NCBI GenBank assembly: GCA_017549145.1
Contig: JAFYVM010000057.1
Location: 1-64,000 of the forward strand
Origin: Bacteroidales bacterium
GTDB taxonomy: Bacteria > Bacteroidota > Bacteroidia > Bacteroidales > UBA932
DNA length: 64,000 nucleotides
Direction: 5' to 3'
Position 1 is the first letter of the stretch; each line of letters opens with the position of its first letter. Made by a program: the position numbers and the translations under genes. Shown piece after piece: positions 417 through 51,194 of the stretch. The notes beneath the pieces were generated by a model. The model was not told the origin of the DNA, made no database searches, and saw only the letters and a list, made by a program, of their open reading frames with translations.

Positions 417-2987
417 TTAAAGCAAACCGTCGATGATAGGTTTGATGATTGCCTCCATTACGTCGTATCCGTCAGGACCTGGGTGGAGGTGGTCATACAG
501 ACAGTAGTCTGGATGCAAAGCCAACTGATCGTCCGCTACAAGCGCAGGCCAGTAGTTGCAATATGTGAATCCCTTGCTGTCAACATATTCCTTGATCATA
601 CCGTTCAGTTCAATGATATGCGGTCCCTTGTTTTTAGGAGACAGCTTTGAATAGTTGTCGTTACATGGAGTAACTGAACAGAGAACCACCTTGATTCCAG
701 CAGCATCTGCCTTCTCAGCCATTGCTGTAAGGTTTGCAAGGATCTGCTTCTTGGTAACACCCTGTGCAAGGTCATTGGTACCGCCCATGATGACTACAAC
801 CTTTGGATTAAGGTCTACAATATCCTTATCAAAACGAGCAAGCATCTGAGTTGTATTCTGACCGCTTACACCTCTGTCCACATAATTATTGCCGGAGAAG
901 AAGCCAGGATGGAAATTCACTGTCACTGTTTCTCCTGTGTCTGTCATATAGCTTGAATTGAACGGTATCAACATCGGATACTTCGTCTTGCTATATGCAG
1001 CGGAATTTCTTGCCCACTGCCATGTGATACTATCGCCGATAAAGGCCGCTGCAATACGACGTGGTGTCTGAAGAAGCACTGGTAGAGATACAGAAAGATC
1101 CCAGGTGCTCGCATTCCAGCCGAGAGAAGATGCCTGTGAAGATACTGAACCCTCAACACCAGCATAGCAGTTGGTAATAGTTGCTTCAACAGTATTCACA
1201 CCATAGAACGGTAGCGAAGCATGCCATCCGATACAATTTTTAATAGTAGGCTTTCCACCATTCTGCTCAGCACACTGTCCGACAAACGCACCCACATTAC
1301 TTCCACTGCACTGAACTGCTCCTGCAGAGTAGCAAGATGAAATGGTTGCCACATATGCAACACCAGCAAAGCCTCCTACTGCAGAATATGAACCACCATC
1401 AACAGCAGCTGTCGTATAGCAATCTACAGGTCCGCCTTGCTGAACATATGCACTGAAACCACCGCACTGGTTAGCCTTGGCAGTCACCTTACCACCTGAT
1501 ACATAACTGCGGTCAATAGCCTCATATTGCACACCGACAAAACCACCAGTGTTTGTACTACCTGTAACCGCTGTCTCTTTTACGCCACACTGAGAAAGGG
1601 TAATATTATTTGCAGCATTATAGCTTGCACCCAACTGACCGACAAATCCTCCGATACGCTGACCTGTCGGAGCACTTACAGTTGCATTCTCCACAAGACA
1701 TCCATTGAACGAAACACCTTTAGTAGCATAACCGCAGAAACCGGCACTGTGACCTGTTTTTCCAGTATATGTAGAAGTAACTGCTCCTTTCTCAAACTTG
1801 GAATCTGTAAAACTTGCATTCTCAGCATAGCCGATAAATCCTCCTGTCTGCTGAGCTCCAGTCACATTACCACTTGCAGAACACTCCTTGAACATAGATG
1901 AGCCACAAGCCTGTCCGGCAAATCCACCGGTATAGTTACCTGCATTTGTAATGACTGCCGCAGAAGAGCATCCGTTATAAGTTGTTGCTACCTCCGAATA
2001 TCCGACAAAACCGCCGACACGGGTAGCCTTCGCAGTAATAGTTGTTCCTTCAAGTACATGGCTGTTGATACATGTAGGACCCATAGTGCTCGCCGAGCGT
2101 CCAAGGAAACCTCCAACATCATTGAGAGTCTTATCTGCAGCATTATTCTTATTCGCAATGATAGTAGCCTTTACAGAACAATCAATAAAAGATGAGCCGT
2201 ATGATGTAAATCCGACAAAACCTGCTGTATAGATATCACCGCCAGTTGTATTGTTCTGATTGATAGTCACATCCGAAACGTGACAATCCTTAAAGATTGC
2301 TGGAACATCATATTTATCCTCGCTACCGAGATCGACATATGCAGCAAAACCTGCGATATATGATGTTGATGTCAATGTCGTATTCTCCACACGGCATCCT
2401 GTTACATTACCAGTTGTTCTTGCTACACCTGCAAAACCACCGACATATCTTGTTCCGGTAACAGTAGAGTTGGTTACTACTACGTTCTCACAAGATCCAG
2501 GAAGTCCATTTGTTCCAAGGAAGCCGGCAACCACACCACAGTTTGCACTACCTCCATTAATTGTTGCATTACTGAATGTGACATTCCTTACACTTCCGTA
2601 AAGCACACCCGCGAAGCTGGCATAAGTACCGCTGGCTGTAAGATTGGAAATGGTATGTCCCTTGCCATCAAAGTCAATCGCCTTGTAGAAAGAGCCACTG
2701 GCATTCAAAGGTGTCCACTTAATCTCAGATGCATCCACATCAGCAATCATACAAGCATAGAACTTGAACTTATTCTTGTCAGCAGGCTGCGCAGCATCCT
2801 TATAGACATTCATAAACTCCTCAAGACGGGCTGCATTGTCGATGACAAATGGTCTTTCCTGGGAGCCATCACCATAGTCAATTACTTCTTCTGGTACATC
2901 TGGTTCCTGAGGTGGATTTTCCGGTTGCTCCGGTGTACATGCCGCAAAAGAGAGCAGGCATAACAAAAATACAATCAAATTTCTCAT
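417..2987 (-). CDS. GLUG beta-helix lipoprotein with C-terminal SGNH hydrolase
   Basis: This is an 856-residue surface lipoprotein. The signal ends in the lipobox SFAAC, followed by a Pro/Glu linker. Residues about 60-630 consist of many GLUG-type repeats (GGF-x-G ... CYxxG), predicted to fold as a right-handed beta-helix or adhesin-like stalk. Residues 643-856 are an SGNH/GDSL hydrolase. Block I is GDSIT with Ser653, block II is RGVSGQN, block III is GGTND, and block V is DHLHP with the catalytic Asp/His pair. Such enzymes usually remove acyl groups from carbohydrates; the substrate here is unknown. It is the last gene of the PUL1 strand, 34 bases after asnA, and is followed by a terminator. 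The combination suggests an esterase displayed on a binding scaffold (inference). Confidence 0.85.
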   Translation of the reverse strand: MRNLIVFLLCLLSFAACTPEQPENPPQEPDVPEEVIDYGDGSQERPFVIDNAARLEEFMNVYKDAAQPADKNKFKFYACMIADVDASEIKWTPLNASGSFYKAIDFDGKGHTISNLTASGTYASFAGVLYGSVRNVTFSNATINGGSANCGVVAGFLGTNGLPGSCENVVVTNSTVTGTRYVGGFAGVARTTGNVTGCRVENTTLTSTSYIAGFAAYVDLGSEDKYDVPAIFKDCHVSDVTINQNNTTGGDIYTAGFVGFTSYGSSFIDCSVKATIIANKNNAADKTLNDVGGFLGRSASTMGPTCINSHVLEGTTITAKATRVGGFVGYSEVATTYNGCSSAAVITNAGNYTGGFAGQACGSSMFKECSASGNVTGAQQTGGFIGYAENASFTDSKFEKGAVTSTYTGKTGHSAGFCGYATKGVSFNGCLVENATVSAPTGQRIGGFVGQLGASYNAANNITLSQCGVKETAVTGSTNTGGFVGVQYEAIDRSYVSGGKVTAKANQCGGFSAYVQQGGPVDCYTTAAVDGGSYSAVGGFAGVAYVATISSCYSAGAVQCSGSNVGAFVGQCAEQNGGKPTIKNCIGWHASLPFYGVNTVEATITNCYAGVEGSVSSQASSLGWNASTWDLSVSLPVLLQTPRRIAAAFIGDSITWQWARNSAAYSKTKYPMLIPFNSSYMTDTGETVTVNFHPGFFSGNNYVDRGVSGQNTTQMLARFDKDIVDLNPKVVVIMGGTNDLAQGVTKKQILANLTAMAEKADAAGIKVVLCSVTPCNDNYSKLSPKNKGPHIIELNGMIKEYVDSKGFTYCNYWPALVADDQLALHPDYCLYDHLHPGPDGYDVMEAIIKPIIDGLL

Positions 2988-3021
2988 AGTAAATTATAAT
3001 ATAGTTTGTAATGTTTCATCT

Positions 3022-4056: not shown

Positions 4057-4073
4057 AAGTTTCTAATCTAAGT

Positions 4074-4811: not shown

Positions 4812-4826
4812 ATTATTTTCAGACAA

Positions 4827-5570
4827 TTATAGTTTTACTATTTCCTTACTCCACACAGAGTAGCCTTGACGGCTCAGATGGAGATGATCTCTAGAATATA
4901 GCTCAGTCTTCATGCTACCATCCGGATTAATGAACCATGAAGCCGGATTGACATATTCAACGTTTCTGACTTTATGCTTCGCCAAACATGAATGTATAGC
5001 ATCACAAGCTTTTCGTCTATCGGAATCAGGCTCCAGACCTGCTGGAAGAGGTCCCAATACAATGATTCTAGCATCAGGCATCTGGGCTACAGCCTCTTTT
5101 GCACACGCAATCACTCCACGTGCAATATCCTTTGGAGCATCACCGGCGATCACATTATTGATGCCGATTGTAATGATGACAGTCTTAGGATTGCAACGAC
5201 CATATCCCCCATTCTGAAGCCTCCATAAAAGATGCTGCGTTCGATCTCCAGATATGCCAGCGGCCTCCCACTTATCCTTACCCAGGGCTTCATCCATGGA
5301 TGCTTTTCCATTCTTGGAGGTCACCAGTTCTCTATTTCCTCCAAATCCCTGAGTAATAGAATCCCCAAGTAACAAAAGCTCAAGTTGCTTTCCATCTAAG
5401 GTCTTTACAATATCCTCTGCTACAGCCATCCAGTCAGAACCAGGTTTCCAACCCGCAGACACTGCTCTTGTCTCAGTTCCTGGGACAGGTTTAACACATT
5501 CGTTTGGCCTAGCCTCGCAAATCAAAGATAAAAAGAATAGAAAACATGCAACTATAACCCTCATTATCAT
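4827..5570 (-). CDS. Secreted SGNH/GDSL hydrolase
   Basis: A 247-residue protein with an N-terminal hydrophobic export signal (to about residue 21, ending CEA-R) and a single SGNH domain. Block I is LLGDSITQGFGG, block II is GISGDRT, block III is TIGINNV (Asn in the oxyanion hole), and block V is SRDHLHLS with Asp and His. The arrangement resembles platelet-activating-factor acetylhydrolase-like bacterial esterases, which deacetylate sugars or lipids. It lies directly after the GH29 gene with no spacer, so the two are almost certainly translated from one message. Two ATG codons are possible (5570 and 5564); both precede the signal. Confidence 0.85.
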   Translation of the reverse strand: MIMRVIVACFLFFLSLICEARPNECVKPVPGTETRAVSAGWKPGSDWMAVAEDIVKTLDGKQLELLLLGDSITQGFGGNRELVTSKNGKASMDEALGKDKWEAAGISGDRTQHLLWRLQNGGYGRCNPKTVIITIGINNVIAGDAPKDIARGVIACAKEAVAQMPDARIIVLGPLPAGLEPDSDRRKACDAIHSCLAKHKVRNVEYVNPASWFINPDGSMKTELYSRDHLHLSRQGYSVWSKEIVKL

Positions 5571-7370
5571 TTATTTAGTCGTAGCTGTAAAAGCTGTAAC
5601 TCCATAAGTAGGGCTAGAGACTGTTGCCGAACCTGTACCTGTTTCCACTCGTATTGGTGTCAAGCGAAGCATGCGGGCTCTTATTGGTTCATCAAAAACC
5701 ACTTCCTGAGCAACTGGATTATTCACAATATTCTCAAACATCTTTTCCTCATACAGCACAGTCCAGTTCTCACAGTCGATGCTTGCTTCTAGCTTATATG
5801 TAGAAATAACTCCACCTTCTCCATTCTCCTTAGGAGCATACACATATCCCTTTACAGTCTTTTTATTGTCTCCCAAGTCAACAACCAGACAATCCGATGC
5901 CGACTTCACCTCTCCACCAGGCAGATTTGTCAACTCGTGACTAACATAGATATTATCCATATATAGAGCAAAGCCATTAAGTACAGGACATGCCAAAGCC
6001 TCTTCAATATTGACGCGTACAGCCGTAGTCGTAGTCACTGGTACATGTACAATTCTCTTATATCCAATTGTCGTTTCGCGAGCGATTGGTTTCCATGAAC
6101 CATCCTCATCCAAGGCATCAATTGTAAAGGTAGCCACTCTCTGTCCAAGAGGAATATACTCCTGAAGCTGCACCCTATTAAATGTACGCTTTTCAGGCAG
6201 AGTTACAGTAAATGATACTGTCGTAATGCTATCATCCACTGCCCAATACTTATCATAATCGCCTCTCAGCATATTCTCAGCACGATATTTCCTACTACCG
6301 CCACGCACATTATCAGCCTCAACACGGGCATCTTTTGCCATATCAACACTAAATATCTCATCAAGCGCAGCACGAAACTCCATCAAACGTGCAGAATCCA
6401 CTGGATGAATAAGTCCACATGTATCAGGCGGCACATTCAATAAAAGAAGCGAATTGCGGCCTACGCTCTCATAATATATCTTCAAAAGATGCTGCAGCGA
6501 CTTCACTGTGCTATTCTCTCTCTCCTTCCAGAACCATCCTTTACGAATTGACACATCAGTCTCAGCTGGAGCCCAAGTATTACCACCAACGATTCCCTCG
6601 TTAAGCTGTTTACGGCTTGTTGGAGGACCATTAAAATCATCATCCACATTCATCGTACTCCAGCAAGTGCGACCAGCGTGACCCCTCTCGTTACCTACCC
6701 AACGACATCCTGGACCATAATCACTAAAAATCACTATACCAGGCTGCATCTTATCTACTGTACCATTAAATCGCACCCAGTCATACACCTGTTTCTTTCC
6801 ATTAGGGCCCTCACCACAAGCTCTATCGAACCACTGCTCGAACACATGACCATAGCTTCCCAAAGCATGCTCCAAGGTCTTCACAAAGACATCATTATAC
6901 TCATCTGTACCATAATGTGGATCATTTCTATCCCATGGAGAAATATAGATTCCAAAACCAAGTCCATCCTCTCGGCAAGCCTCAGAAAGATCTTTCAACA
7001 CATCACCCTTTCCATCTCTCCAAGGACTCTGCGCCACAGTATGATTGCTTACAGGATTTGGCCAAAGACAAAATCCGTCATGATGCTTTGCAGTAATAAT
7101 CACACCCTTCATTCCTGCAGCCTTAGCAATCTGCGTCCACTGGCTGCAATCCATTGCTGTTGGATTAAAAAGTTCTTCTTTTTCCTGACCGCTACCCCAC
7201 TCTACACCAGTAAAGGTATTTGGACCGAAATGCATAAACATATTATACTCCATCTTCTGCCACTCCACCTGCTGAGGAGTAGGTATAGTACCAAACGGAG
7301 CCACCTCCTGCACATTCTTACAAGAGATAGCAACAAAAAATATAAGCGCTACGGCAAATAACTTTCTCAT
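5571..7370 (-). CDS. GH29 alpha-L-fucosidase lipoprotein with F5/8 domains
   Basis: This enzyme should release alpha-linked L-fucose from glycans. The signal ends in AISC (lipid anchor). The GH29 catalytic barrel covers about residues 30-340. Family marks are MHFGPNTF near residue 46, ITAKHHDGF at 92-100, and QWFDRACGEG at 179-188, where Asp182 of WFD is the expected nucleophile by family analogy. About residues 345-480 and 500-599 look like discoidin (F5/8 type C) carbohydrate-binding modules. It is followed without spacer by the SGNH hydrolase gene. It is the only classical glycoside hydrolase I recognise in PUL1, which suggests the target glycan carries fucose or a fucose-like sugar. Confidence 0.88.
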   Translation of the reverse strand: MRKLFAVALIFFVAISCKNVQEVAPFGTIPTPQQVEWQKMEYNMFMHFGPNTFTGVEWGSGQEKEELFNPTAMDCSQWTQIAKAAGMKGVIITAKHHDGFCLWPNPVSNHTVAQSPWRDGKGDVLKDLSEACREDGLGFGIYISPWDRNDPHYGTDEYNDVFVKTLEHALGSYGHVFEQWFDRACGEGPNGKKQVYDWVRFNGTVDKMQPGIVIFSDYGPGCRWVGNERGHAGRTCWSTMNVDDDFNGPPTSRKQLNEGIVGGNTWAPAETDVSIRKGWFWKERENSTVKSLQHLLKIYYESVGRNSLLLLNVPPDTCGLIHPVDSARLMEFRAALDEIFSVDMAKDARVEADNVRGGSRKYRAENMLRGDYDKYWAVDDSITTVSFTVTLPEKRTFNRVQLQEYIPLGQRVATFTIDALDEDGSWKPIARETTIGYKRIVHVPVTTTTAVRVNIEEALACPVLNGFALYMDNIYVSHELTNLPGGEVKSASDCLVVDLGDNKKTVKGYVYAPKENGEGGVISTYKLEASIDCENWTVLYEEKMFENIVNNPVAQEVVFDEPIRARMLRLTPIRVETGTGSATVSSPTYGVTAFTATTK

Positions 7371-7381: not shown

Positions 7382-8818
7382 TTATTTCTTAGGCAAATAA
7401 ATTGCGAAACCGGACTTTACATCTTCACAGAAAGTCGTCTGATTAGGATTACTGCGAGGATCAGATGCAGCGAGATCGGTTCTGTCAGCATAAGCAAGAT
7501 TGAAAGCACGATACTTCCAGTCACCCCACCACGCATCATCCACAACAACAATATTCGTAGTCACATTTCCAGGACGCGTGCTACTTGTATTAACTACATC
7601 AAGCTCTGTCCATCCCTCTGGACGATACATATTGCCTGTCTGCTGAACAATCACAGTACCATTCGGAAGATCTTCCTTTGTATAAATTGGAGTTGCAACA
7701 AAATCGCAAATAGTACTGTTCCAACTTGTATTATCCAAAGTATACATTGTAGACTTATAGTTCTTGTTTGAAGAGTTGTAATACGCAAAATCAGTGTACT
7801 GAATCTGCATTACAGTATAGTTTGCAGGATCGTATCCATTATACTGAAGGATCTCTTCAGGAGTTGCTGTAGCTGGATCAAAGTTCTTATCCGGAGGATA
7901 TGTAGATACCGTCACCGCATAAGGAGTCTCGTATGCATTGTTTACAGCCTCCTTCATAGCCAGAATCTCCTTCTCTGAATATGTATAACCTGTAGGAGTG
8001 TAAGTTACCTTATCAAGATCACGACCTGTAAGCGCCTTTGCATAACCAAGAGCAGTTAGATAACGACCCTTATCATATGACATATGATAGCCGTCACGTG
8101 TAAGATTATCACCCACAAAGCTGGTACGCATATTCTGCACTGCTGTTCCGTTAGGAATCACCTTTCCAAACCATCCTGTCGGCACAACCTTAGTCTGAAC
8201 TGCATTCAGAATAGCGTTATACATAGTCATCTGGTCATTATTATAGCTAGCAAAACCAGAATGAGTCGAAGTTGCCTGATATGCCCATGTCATATGCCAT
8301 GCCAACTCCGAATCAGGGCAAACAGCCATTACAGATGTCACTAGAGAAGCCAGATATGTATCATAAGTCTGAGCCTGACCTGACTTAGGACTTCCCTGCT
8401 GCATTGTGATGATATCCCACTGCTCACTGCTCACTGCATCCATTGGCTTATAGGAAGCTGTCTTATTCCAAGTTCCGGTGGTATTGAGATAATAAGTATA
8501 GCTAGCACTATTGTTCTGGAAATTAGTAGCGTGAGTCTCAAGAGTACATCCGGCAATATATAGATTACCAAGTACGATTTCCTCATAACCCAGGTCAACC
8601 AACATACCGTAGAGATACTCCATAGCATCCACTGAGAAGCTGTTTCCTATAGCAAGGATCTTTATGGTAGTGCTATTATCTTCCGGAGTTTCTTGTTCAG
8701 TTTCACCAGGCTGCTCAATAGGAGGATATGATGTTGGAGGCACCTGTTTCTCACATGCACTGGCACATACTGCAAATACCATCAGCAGTGCCATAAATTT
8801 CAAACGAATATTCTTCAT
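7382..8818 (-). CDS. DUF4886 (SGNH-like) lipoprotein
   Basis: The ATG at 8816-8818 (MKNIRLK...) is preferred because it directly precedes a lipoprotein signal ending ASAC; the frame also has an earlier start at 8842. Residues about 55-300 are a DUF4886 domain, with ILAIGNSFSVDA as the block-I-like motif (GNS in place of GDS), GNLYIAGC, and ITMQQGS. DUF4886 proteins are common in Bacteroidetes PULs and are predicted esterases related to SGNH hydrolases. The C-terminal 150 residues (from about YNGYDPANYTVMQIQYTDF) form a second, compact domain of unknown role ending GFAIYLPKK. The gene lies between GH29 and the GDPD fusion with short spacers, consistent with an operon. Confidence 0.8.
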   Translation of the reverse strand: MKNIRLKFMALLMVFAVCASACEKQVPPTSYPPIEQPGETEQETPEDNSTTIKILAIGNSFSVDAMEYLYGMLVDLGYEEIVLGNLYIAGCTLETHATNFQNNSASYTYYLNTTGTWNKTASYKPMDAVSSEQWDIITMQQGSPKSGQAQTYDTYLASLVTSVMAVCPDSELAWHMTWAYQATSTHSGFASYNNDQMTMYNAILNAVQTKVVPTGWFGKVIPNGTAVQNMRTSFVGDNLTRDGYHMSYDKGRYLTALGYAKALTGRDLDKVTYTPTGYTYSEKEILAMKEAVNNAYETPYAVTVSTYPPDKNFDPATATPEEILQYNGYDPANYTVMQIQYTDFAYYNSSNKNYKSTMYTLDNTSWNSTICDFVATPIYTKEDLPNGTVIVQQTGNMYRPEGWTELDVVNTSSTRPGNVTTNIVVVDDAWWGDWKYRAFNLAYADRTDLAASDPRSNPNQTTFCEDVKSGFAIYLPKK

Positions 8819-8855
8819 AATGCTATATTTACTAATCGACAAATATAATATTTTC

Positions 8856-11237: not shown

Positions 11238-11300
11238 ATCGTTAATGTAACAAGAGGATGACTTTGCAGCCATCCTCTGATTTTATATAGGTTGCTTTGA

Positions 11301-15311: not shown

Positions 15312-15323
15312 CTGTGTCATCAA

Positions 15324-24413: not shown

Positions 24414-24426
24414 AGGTCTAAACTTT

Positions 24427-25575: not shown

Positions 25576-25577
25576 AA

Positions 25578-33032: not shown

Positions 33033-33051
33033 CAACAAAATACAATATCAT

Positions 33052-38950: not shown

Positions 38951-38954
38951 CAAG

Positions 38955-41549: not shown

Positions 41550-44147
41550 TTATTTAACACAAGCACCGATAACCTTGTCAGAATCAGTTCTAGCATTACC
41601 CTTCTGGTCTTTAGCAAGAACGTCAGCTGTCATAGTACCTGCAGCAAGTTTCTTAAGATCTGTTGCTGTCATACCGTTGCCAAAAGCAGGGTTAGTTGAA
41701 GCTGTACCAACAAGCTTAACCACGCCGTCAGCATATGCAGAAAGCATTGTCTTATAGTCAAATGCAGGAGTTACAGTTGCTGTAGCACCATCAGCACCAT
41801 AGTAAGCAGCACCAATAAGAGAGTTCTTGATTGTCATAGTACCTGCCTTGTTATTTGTATCAGAAGCTACACCTGCAGCAGTCATATTACCTGATGCGAT
41901 AGTATTGTAAAGGTTCATTGTAGTACCAGCTGTCTCACAGCAGAATGTTCCAAGATTTGTCTCAGAAGTACTGATATTACCAGTAGCTGTACAGCTTACT
42001 ACTGTAGCATTTACCTTACAAGCTGCAGTACCGTAGAGGTTAATAGCAGCTCCAAGAGATCCAGCCTGGTTATTTGCAAATGTACAGTTAGCAACATAAA
42101 GATTAGTATTGTCAATCTTTGCATTTCTCATGTACAATGAAGCTGCACGACCATTTGCCTTATTGTTAGCAAATGTACAGTTGTTGAAGTATGCATTATA
42201 TGCACCTGTTGCGTTTGTATACATGTAGATACCTCCGATACAACCACTAGCGGCGCCGTCTACTGGTCCGTTGTTAGTGTACTTACAACCATCGAAAGTA
42301 ACATCCATATCACCACCTGTAGTGGTTGTATACATATAGACAACACCATTACCGTTATTTTTGTTACCATCGAACTCACAGTTCTTGAAAGTCATCTTTG
42401 CGTTATTTACAAGCAAAGCTGCTCCCATGCTACCAACGTTACGGTTGAATGTACAGCCTTCGAAAGATATCTTCATCAGGTTAGCACCACTATCATCTCT
42501 AACATATACACCACCATTGTTACCAGAAGCGGTATTGTCATCAAAGTGAGAGTTCTTAACCACTGCCTCGAGTCCCTTCTCTGCAGGAACATAGAAATAA
42601 GCAGAACCAGCGAAACCACCGTTTGCCTTATTATTTACAACTGAGCAGCCGTCCATTACAAGCTTAGTATCTGTAGTAAACACAGCACCACCATTGTTAG
42701 TAGCAGACTCATTTCCAGTAATTGTACAGTTGGTCATATTAACCTCTGTACCAGTACAGTAAAGGCCACCTGCATTTGCAGCGTTATTTCCTGAAATTGT
42801 TACATTCTTAAGATCAACTACTGTATTAACAAGTGCGAGACCACCACCGTTTGTAGCAGTAAGGTTAGCTTCATTGCAAGGAAGGAATCCAACAGCATCA
42901 GCTGTATTAACACCACCAGAAATAGTGATACCCTCGATTACAACCTTCTCTCCCTCAACCTTTGGAGAAGAAACTACAAGAGTGTGGTATGCCTTACCAG
43001 CACCGTCAAGAATAGTCTTATTAGCTGCAGCATCAGCAACAGCACCTGTAGCAGCATTTGCTGGATAACCACCGATAACTGTAATATTCTTATCAATGAA
43101 GAAGCCCTTGAACTCATCCTGAGCTGGCGCCTCAACAGGTGCATCAGCAGTGCCTGTCATATACTTCAAAGCAACAGTTGGGTTGTAAGTACCTGCTGCA
43201 AGGTGAAGAACTGAACCAGGAAGAGCATTTGCAAGAGCATAATCAAGAGATGTAGGCTTCTCCCAGTTTAGACCCTTCTCAGCGTCAGTTGCATTAGCCT
43301 TGATGTACCATGCACGTGGGAATGAGTTAGCATCGAACTCGAGAGTCTCAGCAATAACCTTTGAAGACTTAAGACCACCCTCGTCGTTGTAGCTCTTTAC
43401 TGCACCCTCAGTCCAAACTGTGAAAGGATACTCCTTACCATTGTCATAAACCATAGTAATCGCGAGACCACCCTCAACTGTAAACCAACCAAGTGGAATA
43501 TTGAAAGAAGCGCCCTGCTTCATATCCATTGGAGTTGCAAGATTCAAAACAACCTCGTTAAGAGCGTTTCCAACCTTTACGCTACCCTGAGATGCATCAG
43601 CTGTGAATGTACCAGCAAGAGCACCCTCAGAAACTGTAGCCTCAGTTGCAGGAGCAACTACGATCTTCTCAACTGTAATATCGTAAGGAGCGATTGTAAG
43701 GCTAAGAACAGATGCGAGAGGCTTGAATGCAAGAGCAAGCTTATTATCAACCGGAGCATTCATAGTATATGCATAAGCAGGAATCAATGCTGTGTTAGCA
43801 CCATCCTTCCAAGTCTGCTCTGCCTGAATCTTGAATGCACCGAACATATTAGTGCAGTTCACATAAGCAGCAACTGGATTGCTACCAATCACCTCAGCAG
43901 TAAGGAAGCCCTCTGCCTCAGTAAAGTTTGCAGTCTTACCTGCTTTGTCTGCAGCGAAAGTATACATTTCATCGTTGCATACAACTGTGATTTCATCCTG
44001 TGCTTTCCACTCTGGAAGAATTGTTCCATCTGTAGAAGCTACAATTGTGAACTGTTTTGCTTCCTCTGGTTCATTCTGTGGCTGCTTCTCACATCCTACA
44101 GATGCAAGAGCTAGAAGAGAAAGCGTGAAAAATCCTAACTTTTTCAT
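41550..44147 (-). CDS. Fimbrillin-like/beta-helix surface lipoprotein
   Basis: An 865-residue lipoprotein (signal ends ASVGC). Residues about 30-270 look like a fimbrillin-type domain (EWKAQDEITVV, ALAFKPLASVLSLTIAP, FNIPLGWFTVEGG). From about residue 285 (AWYIKANATDAEKGLNWEKP) to 800 there is a right-handed beta-helix of the polymorphic-membrane-protein type with repeats like NCTITGNESATNNGGAVF and SVVNNKANGG. No catalytic residues were identified; beta-helices can be adhesins, binding proteins or lyases. It is followed by the phosphodiester glycosidase gene after 10 bases. Confidence 0.8.
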   Translation of the reverse strand: MKKLGFFTLSLLALASVGCEKQPQNEPEEAKQFTIVASTDGTILPEWKAQDEITVVCNDEMYTFAADKAGKTANFTEAEGFLTAEVIGSNPVAAYVNCTNMFGAFKIQAEQTWKDGANTALIPAYAYTMNAPVDNKLALAFKPLASVLSLTIAPYDITVEKIVVAPATEATVSEGALAGTFTADASQGSVKVGNALNEVVLNLATPMDMKQGASFNIPLGWFTVEGGLAITMVYDNGKEYPFTVWTEGAVKSYNDEGGLKSSKVIAETLEFDANSFPRAWYIKANATDAEKGLNWEKPTSLDYALANALPGSVLHLAAGTYNPTVALKYMTGTADAPVEAPAQDEFKGFFIDKNITVIGGYPANAATGAVADAAANKTILDGAGKAYHTLVVSSPKVEGEKVVIEGITISGGVNTADAVGFLPCNEANLTATNGGGLALVNTVVDLKNVTISGNNAANAGGLYCTGTEVNMTNCTITGNESATNNGGAVFTTDTKLVMDGCSVVNNKANGGFAGSAYFYVPAEKGLEAVVKNSHFDDNTASGNNGGVYVRDDSGANLMKISFEGCTFNRNVGSMGAALLVNNAKMTFKNCEFDGNKNNGNGVVYMYTTTTGGDMDVTFDGCKYTNNGPVDGAASGCIGGIYMYTNATGAYNAYFNNCTFANNKANGRAASLYMRNAKIDNTNLYVANCTFANNQAGSLGAAINLYGTAACKVNATVVSCTATGNISTSETNLGTFCCETAGTTMNLYNTIASGNMTAAGVASDTNNKAGTMTIKNSLIGAAYYGADGATATVTPAFDYKTMLSAYADGVVKLVGTASTNPAFGNGMTATDLKKLAAGTMTADVLAKDQKGNARTDSDKVIGACVK

Positions 44148-44164: not shown

Positions 44165-45928
44165 TTATTTTGCGTTATATGATCCGATTGACTTCTTGGT
44201 TCTTGGAGTACCATTCTGATCCTTAAGAAGAAGTTCTGTATCAATAGCAGGATTGAATCCAGCAGAAGCAAGCTCTGTAAGGTCTGCATTTGAAAGGCCC
44301 TGGTCAACTGCAGGGTTATCTGCACTTACAACTAGAGGGAAGCACTTTGTAAAGCCACCATCATAGTAACCGAACTCGCCAAGCATTGTTGTTGAGAATC
44401 CCCAACCGCCTACTGCTCCGCCTGTAGCATCTACAAGTGATGAACCGAGAATAGAGTTCTTGACAAGTACTCTGTTGGCATCAACTCCATCAGTTACTCC
44501 AGCCTCAGCAGCAATACCAGATGATGTATTACCTGAGACGATACAGTTGTAAGCAGTGATCTGAGCACCTACATTATAAGCGAAGAGACCGCCACCACCA
44601 TTATTTGCATGGTTACCTGTAATTGTACAGTTAAAGAATGTAGTATTTGACAACTTAGCAGCCTCCTGACCGGTTCCGTGGCCTGAAATTGCGCCACCCC
44701 AACCAGCTTTATTGCCAGTAATTGTACAGTTTACAAATACAGCATCTGATCCTGCTCGAATATAAAGAGCACCACCAGAACGCTTATCAGCCTTATGAGT
44801 ACAGTCATTTTCTGTGAACAATGTATTGTAAATACGGCTCACTGTGATTGTTCCGCCGGAATCGATTGAGTAGTAACCGGCAGCCTGCTGACCGCAAGTG
44901 TTCTGAGATACAACAGAGTCATACATATACAATGTTCCACCGGCATTCCAGATACCACCACCATTACTGTCTGCAGCGTTGTTCTGGAATACGCACTGTC
45001 TGAATGTCACCTCGGCATTTGGAGAGATGTAGCAACCAGCAGCAAGAGCTGCAGCATTTGCAATCACCTTACAATTCTCCATAATGAAATTAGCCTTTCC
45101 GATATACAATCCGCCACCGAGGCCGACATCCACAAGGTTTTCACCAGCCTGACGATATATGGTCTGATTCGTAGCATGTGTACGTCCACCTGTGATTGTA
45201 ACGTTCTTAAGAACAGCAGGAGTATTGTCCTTAGATGCAGAAACCACAACAACATGGTATGCACTACCTACACCGTCAAAGATTGTCTCATTCTTAGAAG
45301 GATCAGCTATAGCACCTGTTGTTGCATCTGCTGGATAACCTCCCTCGATTGTGAAGTTACTGTGGAATTCGAATGTTCTTTCCTGCTCAGTCTCACCACC
45401 CTGAAGCAATGTTACAGGAGTATATGTACCAGCAGCAACACAGATCTTATCTCCATCAGCAGCCTTCTCCATAGCAGTTGGAAGAGTTGTTGCTGTCTCC
45501 CAAGTAAATCCTTCAGCAAGACCATCTCCATCTGCCTTGACATAGTAAGTAAATGACTCACCTGCTGGAGTAGGATCCTGAGTTACAGTCATCGTAACTG
45601 GCTTATCAGCGATGATCCATGCTGTAAGAGTAGCAACACGCTCCTTTCTAGTACGGTTTTTAGCTACAGTAAGCACAAGATTCTTACTCTCAAGACCATT
45701 GGCATCAGAAACTGTCAACCATGCTGAATTTGAAGTTACGCGCCATGGAAGATTAGAGTTAAGCTTTACTGTGAGCTCTCCTCCATTCTGGTCAATTTTA
45801 AGATTCTCTTCAGAGAATGATATATTCGGAGTCTGTGGATCGAAACCCGAATCGTCAACGTGATTCAGACAACCAGCCATTACAAAGGCTGCTGCAATCA
45901 TGATGAATGTTTTGAAAATATTCTTCAT
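44165..45928 (-). CDS. BACON/beta-helix surface lipoprotein
   Basis: A 587-residue lipoprotein (signal ends VMAGC). Residues about 30-125 are a BACON domain (GGELTVKLNSNLPWRVTSNS ... VTQDPTP). Residues about 130-560 form a beta-helix nearly parallel in plan to the neighbouring 865-residue protein: YYVKADGDGLAEGFTWETAT, then GGGLYIGKANFIMENCKV and repeats with GNKAGWGGAISG. Both end with a similar KDQNG or KDQKG-x-x-R tail. The pair probably arose by duplication with exchange of the N-terminal module. Confidence 0.82.
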   Translation of the reverse strand: MKNIFKTFIMIAAAFVMAGCLNHVDDSGFDPQTPNISFSEENLKIDQNGGELTVKLNSNLPWRVTSNSAWLTVSDANGLESKNLVLTVAKNRTRKERVATLTAWIIADKPVTMTVTQDPTPAGESFTYYVKADGDGLAEGFTWETATTLPTAMEKAADGDKICVAAGTYTPVTLLQGGETEQERTFEFHSNFTIEGGYPADATTGAIADPSKNETIFDGVGSAYHVVVVSASKDNTPAVLKNVTITGGRTHATNQTIYRQAGENLVDVGLGGGLYIGKANFIMENCKVIANAAALAAGCYISPNAEVTFRQCVFQNNAADSNGGGIWNAGGTLYMYDSVVSQNTCGQQAAGYYSIDSGGTITVSRIYNTLFTENDCTHKADKRSGGALYIRAGSDAVFVNCTITGNKAGWGGAISGHGTGQEAAKLSNTTFFNCTITGNHANNGGGGLFAYNVGAQITAYNCIVSGNTSSGIAAEAGVTDGVDANRVLVKNSILGSSLVDATGGAVGGWGFSTTMLGEFGYYDGGFTKCFPLVVSADNPAVDQGLSNADLTELASAGFNPAIDTELLLKDQNGTPRTKKSIGSYNAK

Positions 45929-45944
45929 ATATCTATCTCTTAAA

Positions 45945-46793
45945 TTATTGAACGATTAAGATTCCACCTGCAATAGCAGCCTCAACGCCCTTATTTGCAG
46001 GCTTATTGAGTAGATCAAAAAGATTAGCGCTACGCATGTTGCGCCATACAGCAGTTACATTGTTGCCAGATGCAAGTGCAAGAGCGTTGTGAGCACCGCA
46101 AGCCTTCATTAGAGTTGCAAGGTCCTTGCAACCGATACCGTTTGAATAGAAGAAATCTCCACCATCTACAACGAGAAGATAGACATCATTTCCATTCTCT
46201 GAAACACCCACAGCTGTACGCGCAGCTGTGGTGTTATCTGTCTGTCCAAGAACGTATCCATCCTGAAGGAGGTGAGCTGTTCCTGAGTAACCCATAGTTA
46301 CATTTGCGCTTACGGATGCATATTCAGATGTTGGAAGGCAAACTGCGTTTCCATCCTTAAGAGTTGCAAAGAAGACATCACCCTTTCCAAGAGCGTTACC
46401 ACCATTGACAGCACCAAGGACTGTGTATTTTCCCTGATTCTCAACTTCTATACACATATTGGTAAGAAGATCTGTCTTTTCAGTTGTATTGGCAGTTGAT
46501 GCTATGAGTGAAACTGGACCAAGTGACACCTTATAAAGGAATAGCTGCATAGCATGACCGTTCTGATTGATATAACTCATATCAAGACGGGTCACTCCTT
46601 GAGCCACCTTAGTCTGAACATCTTTCTTTACGTGTGCAATGTAGTCTGTGGCTCCGTCAACAATCTGCTGTCCTAGCTTTGTAGAAGCCACCTGCTGGAA
46701 GTATTCAGGTTTCTCGAACTCATCCGAGTTACATGACACTGCAGCAAATGCAAGGATGCCCAGTACGACTGATGTAAATATATGTTTTTTCAT
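45945..46793 (-). CDS. NAGPA/DUF2233-like lipoprotein, probably non-catalytic
   Basis: A 282-residue lipoprotein (signal ends AVSC) with one NAGPA/DUF2233-like domain: RTAVGVSENGNDVYLLVVDG closely matches the intact paralog at 40043. Where the paralog has INLDGGGSS, this protein has LALASGNNV, so the conserved glycine-rich catalytic loop is gone. The BACON domains are also absent. It may have become a binding protein at the SusE-like position just after SusD. Whether it keeps activity is open. Confidence 0.75.
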   Translation of the reverse strand: MKKHIFTSVVLGILAFAAVSCNSDEFEKPEYFQQVASTKLGQQIVDGATDYIAHVKKDVQTKVAQGVTRLDMSYINQNGHAMQLFLYKVSLGPVSLIASTANTTEKTDLLTNMCIEVENQGKYTVLGAVNGGNALGKGDVFFATLKDGNAVCLPTSEYASVSANVTMGYSGTAHLLQDGYVLGQTDNTTAARTAVGVSENGNDVYLLVVDGGDFFYSNGIGCKDLATLMKACGAHNALALASGNNVTAVWRNMRSANLFDLLNKPANKGVEAAIAGGILIVQ

Positions 46794-46814
46794 ATCTATT
46801 GTCGTTATTATTGA

Positions 46815-48086
46815 TTAATAACCAGGATTCTGTGTAAGGTTTCTATTTGCCTGACGCTCTGCTGCAGGAATCGGCATAAGAGTCTGGTACTGCTGAATAC
46901 CAAGTTTCTCAACAGCTTTGCCTGTACGAACCAGGTCATACCAACGATGGTTCTCACAGAGGAACTCCTTACGTCTTTCATCAAGGATAGCCTCAATGAA
47001 TTCAGCTTCAGTTCCAGGAATCACCTTAGTAAGGCCACGTGCCTGACGAAGCTCATTCAAACGATTAAGACCCTTTTCTACTCCCTGTGCCTCAGCACTG
47101 ATAAGATACATCTCAGCAAGTCTTGAAATAACCACAGGGTCAGTTCCTTTCTGTCCGCTAGGATACTTATTGATAAAATTCAAGTTATCAAGAGTTGTAA
47201 TTGAAATCTCTTTTCTAAGGTCGTTATCCTCATACATTGTCATCACATCACCAGCAGGAGCATATGAGTAGCTACCTGAGTTAGGATGGTTATATGAATA
47301 GAACATTGCACTGATGGCAACCTTTGACTGGTCAGTATTCAAACATGAGAATGCAAAGATTACTTCCTTATTTGGAGCTGCACGGAAAATCTTGTCAAAT
47401 GAATCAAGACCATAACGCGCATCAGCAATCAGGCTTTCTGCAAGTTCAACAGCCTCTGTCTTCTTGCCAGTGTAAAGACATACACGAGCCTTGAGTGCCT
47501 TCGCTGCATCTGCAGAAAGATAGTTGCATCCCTCATCTGGAGTTCCAAGAAGATCAATAGCAAGATTAAGTTCGTCATAGATAAACTGCCAAACCTCAGA
47601 AGCTGGAGTTCTTGATACGAGGTCATCAGTATTGAACTTCATAAGAGGGACATCACCGAATCTGGTTACAAGGCAAAGGTGGAGATATGCTCTGAAATAA
47701 TGGCACTCACCAAGCACCTTATTACGCATAGCGCTATCTTCCATTCCTTCTGCAATCGAGTAAACGTTGTTTACCTGCATAAGGGCCTTGTAATATCCCT
47801 GCCACTGAGCAAGCATCTCACCGCTCATTGCTGTAGAAAGAGAATTGATAAGGTCGATTGAGTTCTTACTTGCCTTAGTTGTGAGGTTTCCTCCGAAAAG
47901 GTCGAACATCACATAAGCCTTTTCACCTGGATCCTCCTGTACCTTGATATACATACCGCTACGGAGCGATACGATATCCTGAGAGGTTACCGAGCCTGGA
48001 GATACTGCAGATGACGGCTCCATATCGAGGTCGCATCCAACAGCACATACAAGGCTTAATATAAATAGGTTAAATATCTTTTTCAT
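46815..48086 (-). CDS. SusD/RagB family outer-membrane lipoprotein (PUL2)
   Basis: A 423-residue lipoprotein whose signal ends CAVGC. It has the SusD core (CHYFRAYLHLCLVTRFGDVP, AEMYLISAEAQ) and the C-terminal ERRKEFLCENHRWYDLVRTG ... LMPIPAAER ... NPGY. It partners the SusC 12 bases upstream as the surface glycan-binding lid. It is slightly shorter than the PUL1 SusD and not closely similar to it, in line with a different ligand. Confidence 0.95.
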   Translation of the reverse strand: MKKIFNLFILSLVCAVGCDLDMEPSSAVSPGSVTSQDIVSLRSGMYIKVQEDPGEKAYVMFDLFGGNLTTKASKNSIDLINSLSTAMSGEMLAQWQGYYKALMQVNNVYSIAEGMEDSAMRNKVLGECHYFRAYLHLCLVTRFGDVPLMKFNTDDLVSRTPASEVWQFIYDELNLAIDLLGTPDEGCNYLSADAAKALKARVCLYTGKKTEAVELAESLIADARYGLDSFDKIFRAAPNKEVIFAFSCLNTDQSKVAISAMFYSYNHPNSGSYSYAPAGDVMTMYEDNDLRKEISITTLDNLNFINKYPSGQKGTDPVVISRLAEMYLISAEAQGVEKGLNRLNELRQARGLTKVIPGTEAEFIEAILDERRKEFLCENHRWYDLVRTGKAVEKLGIQQYQTLMPIPAAERQANRNLTQNPGY

Positions 48087-48098
48087 ATCATTAATTCT

Positions 48099-51000
48099 TT
48101 AGAAGCTGATGTTTACTCCGAGTTTATAGATTCTTGGAGTAGGCACTCCGTAGTTGTCGCAGCCGATAAGTGCAGGGTTGGTACTGTTAGAGATTTCTGG
48201 ATCCCATCCTCTATACTTACTGATAAGAGCAAGGTTTTCACCCTGGAGATATACTCTCACTGACCTCATCTTCATTGAATCTGTCCACTTCTGAGGAAGT
48301 GAGTAAGAAAGCATAAGAGACTTGAGCTTTATAAACGAACCGTCCTGCATATAATATGTAGAAGCACGGCTGTTGTTTCCATGATATGAATAAACAGGTC
48401 TTGGATAGTTGTTTGTGCTACCTGGGCCAGTCCAGCGGTTATCACACCATTCCTGGAGGAGTCCCTGATAGTTACCCATACGTGTAGGACCCATCATCCA
48501 CTGAGCGAAGATGTCTGCACCGTAGCTATAAGTAAAGAATACACTGAGGTTCAAACCATTCCATGTGAATGAGTTGTTCCAACCACCTGCGAAGTCAGGG
48601 TTTGGAGAACCTACCATAATTCTATCAGAGTTATTGATGATTCCGTTGCCATCAACATCTTCATATTTCATATCACCGGCGCGTACTCCCATACCGTACT
48701 CTCCTGAAGGAACCTCTCCGTCGTACTGATAGATTCCCTGCCAGTTAAGGAGATAGTAAGAACCAACTTCCTCACCAACCTTAAGAGCGTGGTTCGATCC
48801 AAGATCGACGATGTCATCGCTTGTAAGCTTAGTCAAAGTGTTCTTATTGTGAGAAATATTGAATGATGAACTCCAGTGAACTGGTCCTAAGTCAACGTGA
48901 GTATTGAGTGTGAACTCAACTCCGTAGTTACGCATCGAACCGATGTTTGCAAGAATTGCAGTCTGACCTGATGTTGCATGCATTGGCATGTTATAAAGAA
49001 GGTCATGAGTGTTCTTGAGATATGTATCGAACATCATGTTTACCTTACCCTTGAGGAACGAAAGGTCAAATCCGACATCATACTGACCTGCTGTCTCCCA
49101 TGTAAGGTTCTCATTACCCTTTGAGCTGACAGCGATACCACTGATACCACCATAGTTTGCACCTCCGCTGATGAGAGGCTGCCAACCATAATTGCTGATG
49201 CCATCCTGGTTACCTGTCATACCGTAGCTGGCGCGAATCTTCAATTCTGTTGCAGGTGATGGCCAGAAATCCTCCTTAGATACGTTCCATCCGAGAGATA
49301 CTGAAGGGAACATACCCCAACGATACTTAGGAGCGAAACGGCTTGAACCATCCGCACGGAGAGTTGCATTGAGGACATATCTGTCTTTCCATGCAAAGTT
49401 CAATCTACCATACCAAGACTCCAAAGCGTAATCAGAAGTTCCACCTGTAACACCTGAAATAACTGCAGCTACTCCCACAGTATTGAATGAAGGAGATGGG
49501 AAGTTCTGCGCGTCGATACTGTTTGCACGAGCAGATGTCTTCTGGTATGAGTGACCAGCCATTGCTCCGAAAGTAAGATCACCCCACTTATTGTCATAAG
49601 TAAAGAATGTCTCGATGAGGTTGCTCATGATGAAACGATTCTTCTCGATAACACGACCGTTATCCTCCTTGTATGGGTGATTTGCGTTATAGTAGAGATA
49701 ATCAAGAGTATATCCTGCATCTGTACTGAAAGAAGCCTTGAATTTAAGACCCTTGTAGATTTCTGCCTGTGCCCAAAGAGCTCCGAGGAATCTATACTGA
49801 TTTACATAAACAGTCTCCTCTTCAAGAATCTGCACAGGGTTGTGACGAGAAAGCTCGTCTGTACCTCCGAGGTAGTAGTCTCCATTTGGTTTGTAAGGAC
49901 GGTCAAACGGACGCTGCTCTACCATACGCGCAACAATAGTCGAACCGATTGTAGCACCTGGAACTCGGTTGTTATTAATGAAGTTACCGCTCATGTTAGC
50001 TCCGATTTCGAGCCACTTGGCCATCTTGTGTGAGAGATTAGCCTTGAGATTAACCTTTGTGATCTCGTTTGTCTTGATTACACCTTCCTGGTTAGCGAAG
50101 CTGGCAGCAGCATAAATCTTAGTCTTGTTTGTTCCACCTGTAAATGAAACGTCTGCATTGTGCGAGAGACCAAGACGAGTTGCTACGTCAAGCCAGTTTG
50201 TATCAGGAAGACCATCAAATGGGTTACGAATTTGCTGTACATAGCCTGAGCTAGTCTGTACAAAGCCATTCTGATTGTTGTAGTTATCAATAGCCTCGTT
50301 GTAGATTCTTACCCATGACTCAGAGTCTGCATATTTGATTCTGTTCTTGTTATTGAACTCTGAAACGCCAAAGCTATAGTTTACCTTCACTTCAGATCTA
50401 CCCTCACGACCAGACTTAGTTGTGATAAGGATAACACCATTTGTAGCTCTTGAACCATAGATTGCAGCAGCAGCGGCATCCTTAAGGACTTCAATAGACT
50501 CAATATCATTGAGGTTCAACACTGAAAGCGAGCTAAGATCCTCACCGAATGTATAGAGGTTACCTGCCTCGTTGCTTAGAGGAATACCATCAATTACATA
50601 AAGAGGCTCATTGCTGGCACTGAGTGAGCTTGATCCACGGATGCTCATACGCTCTGATGTACCGAGGTTACCAGATGAAGTGGTGATGTTCACACCGGCG
50701 ATACGACCCTGAAGCATTTCAGTCGGGCTGAGCGCTGTTCTAAGGTTATTTTCATCTGGTTTGAATGATGCGATTGAGTTGGTGACGAGTTCGCGGCGCT
50801 GAGAACCGTATGCCACAACGACTACGTCTTCAAGAACGTCTGCATCTGGAGCCAATGTAACATTGATTGGTTGAGAAGGATCTGTTACTACAACCTCCTG
50901 AGTTGCCATTCCAAGGAATGCGACCTCGAGTGTTACAGGAACTGAAACACCACTGAGGGTAAATTTTCCTTCAAAATCTGTGATGACACCATTCTTAGTG

Positions 51001-51194
51001 CCTTTTACCATAACGGATGCTCCGATTACCGGACCGACTTCGTCAAGAACCGTTCCCTTGACAGTGGCATTCGTTACGACTTTTCCGTCTGAATCAGGCT
51101 GCGGTTGCTGAGCCTGAACGGAAACCGATAGAAAAATCGCAGATGCTATCATTATCAGCATCTTTGCGATGGATAGCTTCTTCGGGTTATCCAT
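48099..51194 (-). CDS. SusC/RagA family TonB-dependent receptor (PUL2)
   Basis: A 1031-residue TonB-dependent transporter: signal (to VQAQ), CarboxypepD_reg-like domain (VKGTVLDEVGPVIGASVMVK), plug with VVVAYGSQRRE, LQGRIAGVNITTSSG, LYVIDGIPLSN and GSRATNGVILITTKSG, then the barrel ending LGVNISF. It should import the PUL2 glycan. It is the first gene of PUL2, with a -7 box 59 bases upstream. Confidence 0.96.
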   Translation of the reverse strand: MDNPKKLSIAKMLIMIASAIFLSVSVQAQQPQPDSDGKVVTNATVKGTVLDEVGPVIGASVMVKGTKNGVITDFEGKFTLSGVSVPVTLEVAFLGMATQEVVVTDPSQPINVTLAPDADVLEDVVVVAYGSQRRELVTNSIASFKPDENNLRTALSPTEMLQGRIAGVNITTSSGNLGTSERMSIRGSSSLSASNEPLYVIDGIPLSNEAGNLYTFGEDLSSLSVLNLNDIESIEVLKDAAAAAIYGSRATNGVILITTKSGREGRSEVKVNYSFGVSEFNNKNRIKYADSESWVRIYNEAIDNYNNQNGFVQTSSGYVQQIRNPFDGLPDTNWLDVATRLGLSHNADVSFTGGTNKTKIYAAASFANQEGVIKTNEITKVNLKANLSHKMAKWLEIGANMSGNFINNNRVPGATIGSTIVARMVEQRPFDRPYKPNGDYYLGGTDELSRHNPVQILEEETVYVNQYRFLGALWAQAEIYKGLKFKASFSTDAGYTLDYLYYNANHPYKEDNGRVIEKNRFIMSNLIETFFTYDNKWGDLTFGAMAGHSYQKTSARANSIDAQNFPSPSFNTVGVAAVISGVTGGTSDYALESWYGRLNFAWKDRYVLNATLRADGSSRFAPKYRWGMFPSVSLGWNVSKEDFWPSPATELKIRASYGMTGNQDGISNYGWQPLISGGANYGGISGIAVSSKGNENLTWETAGQYDVGFDLSFLKGKVNMMFDTYLKNTHDLLYNMPMHATSGQTAILANIGSMRNYGVEFTLNTHVDLGPVHWSSSFNISHNKNTLTKLTSDDIVDLGSNHALKVGEEVGSYYLLNWQGIYQYDGEVPSGEYGMGVRAGDMKYEDVDGNGIINNSDRIMVGSPNPDFAGGWNNSFTWNGLNLSVFFTYSYGADIFAQWMMGPTRMGNYQGLLQEWCDNRWTGPGSTNNYPRPVYSYHGNNSRASTYYMQDGSFIKLKSLMLSYSLPQKWTDSMKMRSVRVYLQGENLALISKYRGWDPEISNSTNPALIGCDNYGVPTPRIYKLGVNISF

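Follow-up and report, generated by a model that had tools for sequence, protein, structure and literature searches.

What do the SusCD systems of a Bacteroidales bacterium take up, when the hallmark hydrolases encoded beside them belong to phosphodiester-cleaving families? This question is raised by a stretch of 64,000 nucleotides (referred to here as the window; GenBank assembly GCA_017549145.1, contig JAFYVM010000057.1, positions 1 to 64,000), which is part of contig C56 in a 2.35 Mb genome of 78 contigs that is 83% complete. The window contains two polysaccharide utilization loci (PUL1 and PUL2), each with a SusC-SusD pair, and a small salvage cluster between them; PUL1 encodes two proteins with a glycerophosphodiester phosphodiesterase (GDPD) domain, and PUL2 two proteins of the NAGPA (DUF2233) family. 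We conclude that PUL1 and PUL2 are probably two of several SusCD loci of this genome that take up phosphodiester-containing molecules by the scheme proposed below, and that, as part of this joint scheme, PUL2 likely belongs to a genus-wide class of loci with NAGPA as the hallmark enzyme. What we observed in favor of this is gene content, linkage, conserved catalytic residues, the loss of a motif together with its place on a tree, and gene fusions in both orders (handles beginning with G, C, and L denote genomes, contigs, and loci, respectively).

With 16 NAGPA genes, the window genome has the most among 200 genomes of its genus (the next have 13, 10, and 10), of which 138 contain at least one. 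Among 149 genomes of the family the next count is 5, and in a survey of 393 genomes of the order, which scored the best eight or fewer candidates per genome, the window genome again had the most first-look candidates (17, vs. 13 and 11 in another family). The motif DGGG[SG] is kept in 14 of the 16. Contamination or strain duplication as the source of this number was rejected, as the contigs of the genome are alike in composition and most copies have diverged from one another: tetranucleotide r of its contig pieces to the window is 0.89–0.96, compared with 0.64 or less for eight loci from other genomes of the genus, the exception being one GDPD-bearing piece of C53 at 0.81, and the median pairwise identity of its NAGPA domains is 25% (closest pair 82%). 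NAGPA proteins of about 810–850 amino acids, several of them in tandem, also occur in L146–L151 (G533, G476, G343, and G249); these genomes belong to a different family within the order, and the expansion there is probably independent.

Most of these genes are linked to SusCD. We defined a SusD run as a same-strand run of genes that includes SusD, with gaps of at most 800 bases, and calculated linkage rates from 11 genus genomes within the family sample, in which all 27 NAGPA genes and 29 of the 31 GDPD genes above the cut-off were examined; loci surveyed outside this set were chosen partly for interest or SusD homology and do not enter the rates. Thirteen of the 16 NAGPA genes in the window genome share a SusD run, in six loci (on C19, C52, C56, C65, C66, and C77), and 12 lie within 10 kb of a SusD gene, a zone that makes up 17% of the genome (p = 6e-7 if genes are independent, which tandem copies are not). 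The genome has 22 SusD genes (23 matches, one gene being split). Across the 11 genomes, 20 of 27 NAGPA genes share a SusD run (13/16 in the window genome, 1/2 in G041, 4/5 in G084, 0/1 in G096, 1/1 in G107, and 1/2 in G129).

PUL2 extends on the reverse strand from its SusC gene (48099..51194), which is the best match of the SusC genes in L200–L205, to an alpha/beta hydrolase gene starting at 37952. Its members, all assigned by Pfam as were our other domain calls, are SusC, SusD (46815..48086), a lipoprotein of the NAGPA family (45945..46793; 2.8e-16), a lipoprotein with BACON and beta-helix domains (44165..45928), a second beta-helix lipoprotein (41550..44147), a BACON-BACON-NAGPA protein (40043..41539; 2.1e-32), a GxDLY-SGNH esterase (38955..40046), and the alpha/beta hydrolase (BD-FAE, 37952..38953). 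Relatives of its SusD with 49–73% identity were found in seven other genomes among the 200 searched. The core of SusC, SusD, the first NAGPA, and the two beta-helix proteins is present in L200, L202, and L203; L201 shows its first part, in which the BACON-beta-helix gene itself begins before the contig ends. L200 additionally has the BACON-NAGPA. Similarly, L204 contains SusC, SusD, both beta-helix proteins, and the BACON-NAGPA. The latter is probably a phosphodiester glycosidase. It retains PRT, VDGR, and NLDGGGS, so that both the family profile and the signature are matched, and its nearest structure in the PDB is 3ohg (8.5e-26 over nearly the whole chain), presumably from Bacteroides, followed by the mammalian uncovering enzyme 6pki over a shorter C-terminal stretch. 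Just upstream of the PUL2 SusC gene, on the same strand, lies a GroEL gene (51492–53117); several PUL2-type relatives have in this position a gene for about 250–335 amino acids, perhaps a regulator.

The NAGPA protein next to SusD is of a different kind. Its family profile is still matched and its nearest structure is likewise 3ohg, yet NLDGGGS, a signature that we take to belong to the NAGPA active site, is replaced by ALASGNN. The signature is also absent from the SusD-adjacent NAGPA of L200, L201, L202, and L203, so that five species share the loss. On a NAGPA tree of 51 rows these five proteins form one clade (support 100/99), nested in a ten-row clade (97/97) that also holds the motif-bearing, catalytic NAGPA of the same loci, and the distribution of motif loss on the tree requires three changes. 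Another NAGPA without the signature directly follows SusD on C77 of the window genome. The gene slot after SusCD usually holds surface binding proteins. Because the signature is lost, the proteins nest among motif-bearing NAGPAs, and the gene occupies this slot, the SusD-adjacent NAGPA is probably a former enzyme turned binding protein.

A second line of evidence comes from gene fusions. A histidine acid phosphatase precedes NAGPA in seven proteins (on C65 of the window genome and in L126, L130, L258, L259, L260, and L261) and follows it in two (in L259 and L128), with RHG[AS]R present in all nine; L258–L261 were picked because their NAGPA frames are about 700 amino acids long. On the 51-row tree, the NAGPAs with a fused phosphatase are divided between two separate clades, both of them supported. 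The phosphatase half of the C65 fusion has the histidine acid phosphatase 7r5y as its nearest PDB match, along with multiple inositol polyphosphate phosphatases, and at least 10 of 398 family genomes, of which the best two or fewer candidates each were considered, have a match that spans both halves at E ≤ 1e-60. Besides the fusions, separate histidine phosphatases are encoded within the runs of L204 and L205. Both orders of fusion are expected if these proteins pair an activity that opens sugar-phosphate diesters with one that takes off the phosphate.

PUL1, also on the reverse strand, extends from SusC (15324..18512; Plug and CarbopepD_reg domains, orthologs in L186 and L212) down to an SGNH/GDSL hydrolase gene (Lipase_GDSL_2) at 4827..5570. 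SusD (SusD_RagB, 13977..15323) is followed by a lipoprotein with a lipobox, a PKD domain, and a PQQ-type beta-propeller (12257..13942), which matches PQQ-type and designed propellers in the PDB, keeps its position after SusD in L186 and L212, and is a probable surface binding protein. Next come a GDPD lipoprotein (11301..12242; 1.8e-20, nearest PDB entries 3i10 and 3mz2, presumably of Bacteroidales origin), a propeller-GDPD fusion (8856..11273; PQQ_2 and GDPD) that is probably a lipoprotein, a DUF4886 lipoprotein (7382..8842, nearest PDB entry 4i8i), and a GH29 alpha-L-fucosidase with two F5/8C domains (5571..7370; nearest PDB entries 4zrx and 8ayr, with a further match to the alpha-1,3/4-fucosidase 3ues). 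A GLUG-repeat SGNH lipoprotein (417..2987, reverse strand) is a doubtful member because genes for AsnA (3022–4056) and a DUF3298 protein (4074–4826), both probably housekeeping, intervene; GLUG proteins are common in NAGPA PULs.

The core of PUL1 recurs in two other genomes. In L186, from a Bacteroidales metagenome-assembled genome (MAG) of water deer caecum, the core consists of SusC, SusD, PKD-propeller, GDPD, and two propellers, and in L212 (G576) of SusC, SusD, PKD-propeller, GDPD, and one propeller. Matches at the level of the propeller (E ≤ 1e-20) were confined to the window genome and G576 among 299 family genomes, of which the best three or fewer candidates each were considered, and the contig pattern scan behind L186, whose patterns reach close relatives only, returned two loci, one of them a Bacteroidales MAG. 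A second pairing of GDPD and GH29 occurs in another genus (L111 5238–13032, G008), in a SusCD locus with GH92, a GDPD protein of 1340 amino acids, and GH29.

Both PUL1 GDPDs keep H68, R69, N83, E101, D103, and H116, which are invariant in 17 aligned GDPD sequences and which we take to form the active site. Among the 11 genomes, 12 of 29 GDPD genes share a SusD run: 5/7 in the window genome (including one on C53, of 366 amino acids, assigned by hand as its locus was split at a fetch boundary), 3/6 in G041, 1/1 in G072, 3/6 in G096, and 0/9 across G022, G084, G107, G118, and G129, the genes outside the count being G084:C5:39066 and G129:C4:225333, which were not fetched, and G096:C3:15317, which was below the cut-off. 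Four of the seven in the window genome lie within 10 kb of SusD (p = 0.02, for the same 17% zone). On a GDPD tree of 52 rows (quick search), the two window GDPDs, the L186 and L212 copies, and a C53 pair form a six-row clade, all of it beside SusCD, with an SH-aLRT of 93, just below our starred level. Because the PUL label changes at least seven times on this tree, the SusCD-adjacent GDPDs are not one lineage. The idea that all GDPDs of the genome serve one theme was likewise rejected, as the C77 copy is a metallophosphatase-GDPD fusion and the GDPDs of C77 and C22 are outside any SusD run, and so was an expansion by number (seven here, seven in G096, and six each in G041 and G129). In the C77 protein (L100 4175–6427, 750 amino acids), GDPD is joined to a calcineurin-like phosphoesterase; it clusters on the tree with similarly long GDPDs from G041 and G107 (L168 and L183), and none of these lies in a SusD run.

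Several GDPD loci contain a GlpT-like transporter of the major facilitator superfamily (MFS), which adjoins GDPD on C52 and in L110 and lies one gene away in L121. By NCBIfam, which was used for these proteins and for the transporter of the salvage cluster, MFS proteins near PUL GDPDs match GlpT/PgtP models mostly below the cut-offs, as do the C52, L110, and L121 copies; the nearest PDB entry of the C52 protein is GlpT itself (1pw4). GDPD is paired with S1/P1 in L171 and L177, and in L177 also with EEP. The two hallmark families meet in one run on C52 (NAGPA, DUF4886, S1/P1, organophosphate-type MFS, and GDPD) and in L170 of G041 (NAGPA, GDPD, and GH20-like and GH3-like genes). PDB searches with one EEP protein and one L170 protein gave no match.

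The preliminary description had listed most of these families from the DNA letters, and the bulk of its list stands at the 19 proteins scanned (11 at PUL1, 8 at PUL2): two GDPD modules in PUL1, here with catalytic residues kept in both; GH29 as the sole classical glycoside hydrolase recognised; and three SGNH, one DUF4886, and one alpha/beta hydrolase as the esterase-like families. Its two NAGPA proteins of PUL2 both match the family, but only one is a probable enzyme, the other (45945–46793) being a probable pseudoenzyme without the signature; its span for PUL1 contains the families named, but also AsnA and DUF3298, which look like housekeeping genes. The phosphodiester theme it proposed is borne out by the number and the SusD linkage of the NAGPA genes and by the persistence of that linkage across the genus, which the survey of SusCD neighborhoods it had suggested found for both NAGPA and GDPD.

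To place the companion genes, we compared 25 NAGPA runs with 42 control SusD runs, taken from 38 stretches of eight genus genomes by a fixed step down the SusD list, with known NAGPA and GDPD loci excluded, a design that makes a comparison for GDPD impossible. Pfam scans of 88 of the 91 non-NAGPA genes in NAGPA runs gave GLUG, beta-helix, BACON, EEP, and TIG as top families, and among the best 25 of 91 families the only glycoside hydrolases were GH20 (3), GH3 (2), and GHL10 (2). For 97 of 165 control genes, the best 25 of 150 families included DUF3823, GH20, NAGLU, lyases, a sulfatase, and other glycoside hydrolases. EEP accounts for 5 of the 88 genes and is not among the best 25 of 150 control families, from which families with two or fewer members may drop out; by a local profile that was too narrow, it was found in 1 of 25 NAGPA runs and none of 42 controls. 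DUF4886 was not enriched (1/25 vs. 1/42), and GH20 was rejected as a marker of NAGPA PULs (4/25 vs. 6/42).

We propose the following scheme, for which we infer the activities, their localisation, and the order of steps. In PUL2, the signature-less NAGPA and the beta-helix and BACON lipoproteins would hold a glycan bearing a sugar-1-phosphodiester, SusCD would import it, and the motif-bearing BACON-NAGPA would cut the sugar-phosphate glycosidic bond, leaving a phosphomonoester from which a histidine acid phosphatase, encoded in sister loci as a fusion or close by, would remove the phosphate. PUL1 would act in parallel: its propeller lipoproteins may bind a substrate bearing glycerophosphodiesters, the two GDPD lipoproteins may release glycerol phosphate, and the GlpT-like transporter near GDPD in some sister loci may import the product, with GH29 and the esterases predicted to trim accessory groups. 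Teichoic acids, phosphomannans, and inositol- or glycerophospho-compounds are candidate substrates, and the nutrient sought may be carbon or phosphate; nothing observed separates teichoic acid from eukaryotic phosphodiester glycans, inositol phosphates, or glycerophospholipid head groups.

A number of observations weigh against this scheme. Neither a phosphatase nor a GlpT-like transporter was recognised in PUL1 or PUL2 by the Pfam scan. The motif is kept in the SusD-adjacent NAGPA of L205, L207, and two more distant loci (L208 and L211), and in L204 and L206 the gene directly after SusD is not a NAGPA. Histidine phosphatase or S1/P1 was found in 7 of 25 NAGPA runs and in none of the 42 controls (Fisher 5.5e-4), but only in 4 of 25 once the fusions are left out (Fisher 0.017), and histidine phosphatase alone, fusions excluded, in 2 of 25 (Fisher 0.14); moreover, five of the control runs lack any downstream gene, and a SusD lying in two overlapping stretches was counted twice among the controls. 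Since these phosphatase families were picked after being sighted in the NAGPA set, and several of the NAGPA PULs are orthologous, we regard the fusions as stronger evidence than the enrichment. Proximity alone is a weak argument for GDPD, because SusD density is high (10–45 matches per genome in the genus genomes searched). Further, ordinary glycans may be the main food, since some of the loci contain or adjoin genes for GH29, GH20, GH92, GH2, GH3, and GH97.

Among the alternatives, the substrates could be specifically eukaryotic phosphodiester glycans, i.e., N-glycans, phosphomannans, and glycosylphosphatidylinositol or inositol-phosphate glycans of plants, fungi, protists, or the host, which we consider rather doubtful. 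A close relative of PUL1 is from the water deer caecum MAG, GH92 lies about 3 kb downstream of two NAGPA genes on C19 and, with GH29, flanks the L111 GDPD, GH20 occurs in C66, L170, and L211, EEP and S1/P1 appear in some loci, and the fused phosphatase is nearest to 7r5y and multiple inositol polyphosphate phosphatases. However, the companion hydrolases vary from locus to locus, no glycoside hydrolase was recognised in PUL2, and GH20 is no more frequent than in the controls. Not very likely either is that the loci are induced by phosphate starvation and target the phosphorus of lipid head groups or nucleic acids, in the manner of the Flavobacterium Pus clusters. The C52 run, with SusCD, phosphodiesterases, phosphatases, and an organophosphate-type transporter, fits the description of Pus in PMC8115612, and the pairing of GDPD with S1/P1 in L171 and L177, joined in L177 by EEP, points the same way; yet that text describes Pus as unlike CAZyme PULs, whereas PUL1 carries GH29, and its main text does not mention NAGPA, pf09992, or pf03009.

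Between the two PULs, on the reverse strand at 23139..29175, lie NamZ (23139–24413), a serpin (24427–25581), an AmpG-family MFS permease (25578–26900; TIGR00901, below its cut-off), and a DUF4922-SpoIID protein (26887–29175), so that NamZ, the AmpG-like permease, and SpoIID, named in the preliminary description, are indeed there according to Pfam and NCBIfam, with the serpin added between the first two. Each of the 10 other genus genomes searched has just one DUF4922-SpoIID gene, and the order SpoIID, AmpG, NamZ was kept in all five genus loci inspected (L213–L217), with neither GDPD nor NAGPA nearby in any of them. We therefore judged the cluster to be outside the system and rejected cell-wall salvage as part of it: it looks like ordinary housekeeping salvage whose place between the PULs is incidental, given that its order persists in relatives without GDPD or NAGPA, and the joint cell-wall theme that had been proposed is not supported. 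The serpin is also inserted in L214 (13218–14387, G072), but inspection of the other four relatives did not reveal it; in L213 (13571–16360) and L214 (16369–18999), the gene directly after NamZ is long and matches the SusC profile weakly.

Foraging on bacterial wall polymers, in which the GDPDs would strip glycerol phosphate from teichoic acid and NAGPA would cut the link from GlcNAc (N-acetylglucosamine)-1-phosphate to muramic acid, is an unlikely explanation. Fucose and mannose are typical of eukaryotic glycans, and GH29 here and GH92 in other loci point to these sugars; no muramidase or amidase was recognised by Pfam in PUL1 or PUL2, and the relatives inspected show no linkage of NamZ, AmpG, and SpoIID with GDPD or NAGPA. 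In favor of such foraging, the glycerophosphodiesterase GlpQ digests unsubstituted wall teichoic acid exolytically, releasing glycerol phosphate until the linker is reached, and a glycosidic phosphodiester attaches the linker disaccharide to C6 of N-acetylmuramic acid (MurNAc) (PMC7086022). That bond resembles the GlcNAc-P-mannose linkage on which the uncovering enzyme acts (PMC12024695). NAGPA joined to a predicted toxin domain is also described in Bacillota, in some cases together with a peptidase whose predicted target is peptidoglycan (PMC12419801).

Quite improbable, finally, is that these are ordinary glycan PULs whose NAGPA and GDPD folds serve to cleave bonds without phosphate or are there by chance: the activity of NAGPA in PULs is read from sequence, one NAGPA has lost its signature, and the PUL label switches several times on the GDPD tree, but nearly all NAGPAs of the window genome keep their motif, the GDPD catalytic columns are conserved, and the phosphatase is fused to NAGPA in both orders.

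Returning to the reading that we prefer, uptake of phosphodiester-containing molecules by PUL1, PUL2, and their sister loci, a broader version can be put forward tentatively, at slightly less than even confidence: a distinct SusCD class for phosphodiester-capped glycans, with pseudo-NAGPA binders, uncovering NAGPAs, and bifunctional phosphatase-NAGPA proteins, and with loci of the GDPD type forming a companion branch devoted to glycerophosphodiesters. CAZymes are the basis on which PULs are interpreted; loci centered on phosphodiester enzymes are easily filed as unknown. If the reading is right, molecules such as teichoic acids, phosphomannans, or inositol-phosphate glycans are within reach of a species-rich Bacteroidales genus, and the pseudo-NAGPA beside SusD would clearly exemplify, within a PUL, the change from an enzyme to a glycan-binding protein.

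Some remains in the genome may belong to decaying PULs, namely a SusD frame with one internal stop (C52:58592–59035) and a histidine-phosphatase frame with two (C18:42652–43923). Elsewhere in the window, two tandem tRNA-Asn genes (32959–33521), the second overlapping an opposite-strand frame of 144 amino acids for a resolvase N-terminus, are a possible remnant of an integration site.

How do these loci compare with known systems? Like canonical SusCD PULs, they have SusC and SusD adjacent, and lipoproteins and hydrolases in one run. Unlike in these, CAZymes are not the main hydrolases (GH29 in PUL1 only), the hallmark hydrolases being phosphodiester families, and the SusD-adjacent protein of PUL2 is a signature-less NAGPA. 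The BACON-NAGPA resembles 3ohg and the mammalian mannose-6-phosphate uncovering enzyme in aligning with nearly the whole 3ohg chain and in keeping NLDGGGS, and differs in the BACON domains in front, the second copy without the signature, and the histidine acid phosphatase fused in sister loci. Similarly, the PUL1 GDPDs share the catalytic columns of 3i10 and 3mz2, with matches from the N-terminal half (3i10) to two thirds (3mz2), but are fused to or beside PQQ-type propellers and SusCD. GlpQ and GlpT constitute a glycerophosphodiester pathway, echoed here by GDPD near a GlpT-like transporter on C52 and in L110 and L121, except that the genes here stand in a run with a SusCD outer-membrane importer. 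The cluster between the PULs, with NamZ, an AmpG-like permease, and SpoIID in conserved order, corresponds to a MurNAc/peptidoglycan salvage cluster.

In the open-licence literature, mostly covered short of full text, we found no paper that pairs NAGPA, PF03009, or GDPD with SusCD. The closest known kind is Pus of Flavobacterium, in which a SusCD-like pair stands beside phosphomonoesterases, phosphodiesterases, and inner-membrane organophosphate transporters, pf13653 (GDPD_2) is found in one of the enzymes, and the clusters are described as unlike CAZyme PULs and as induced by low phosphate (PMC8115612). PUL1 and PUL2 share with it the combination of SusCD and a phosphodiesterase (GDPD and NAGPA, respectively); no organophosphate transporter was recognised in either, such a gene (a GlpT/PgtP-like MFS) being seen in our survey in the C52, L110, and L121 runs, and a CAZy enzyme, absent from Pus, is present in PUL1 (GH29) with none recognised in PUL2. 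If the proposed class is real, it would be the glycan counterpart of Pus, most expanded, among the 200 genus genomes, in the species of the window. What is new relative to Pus is NAGPA, its fusions with phosphatase, and the probable pseudoenzyme beside SusD.

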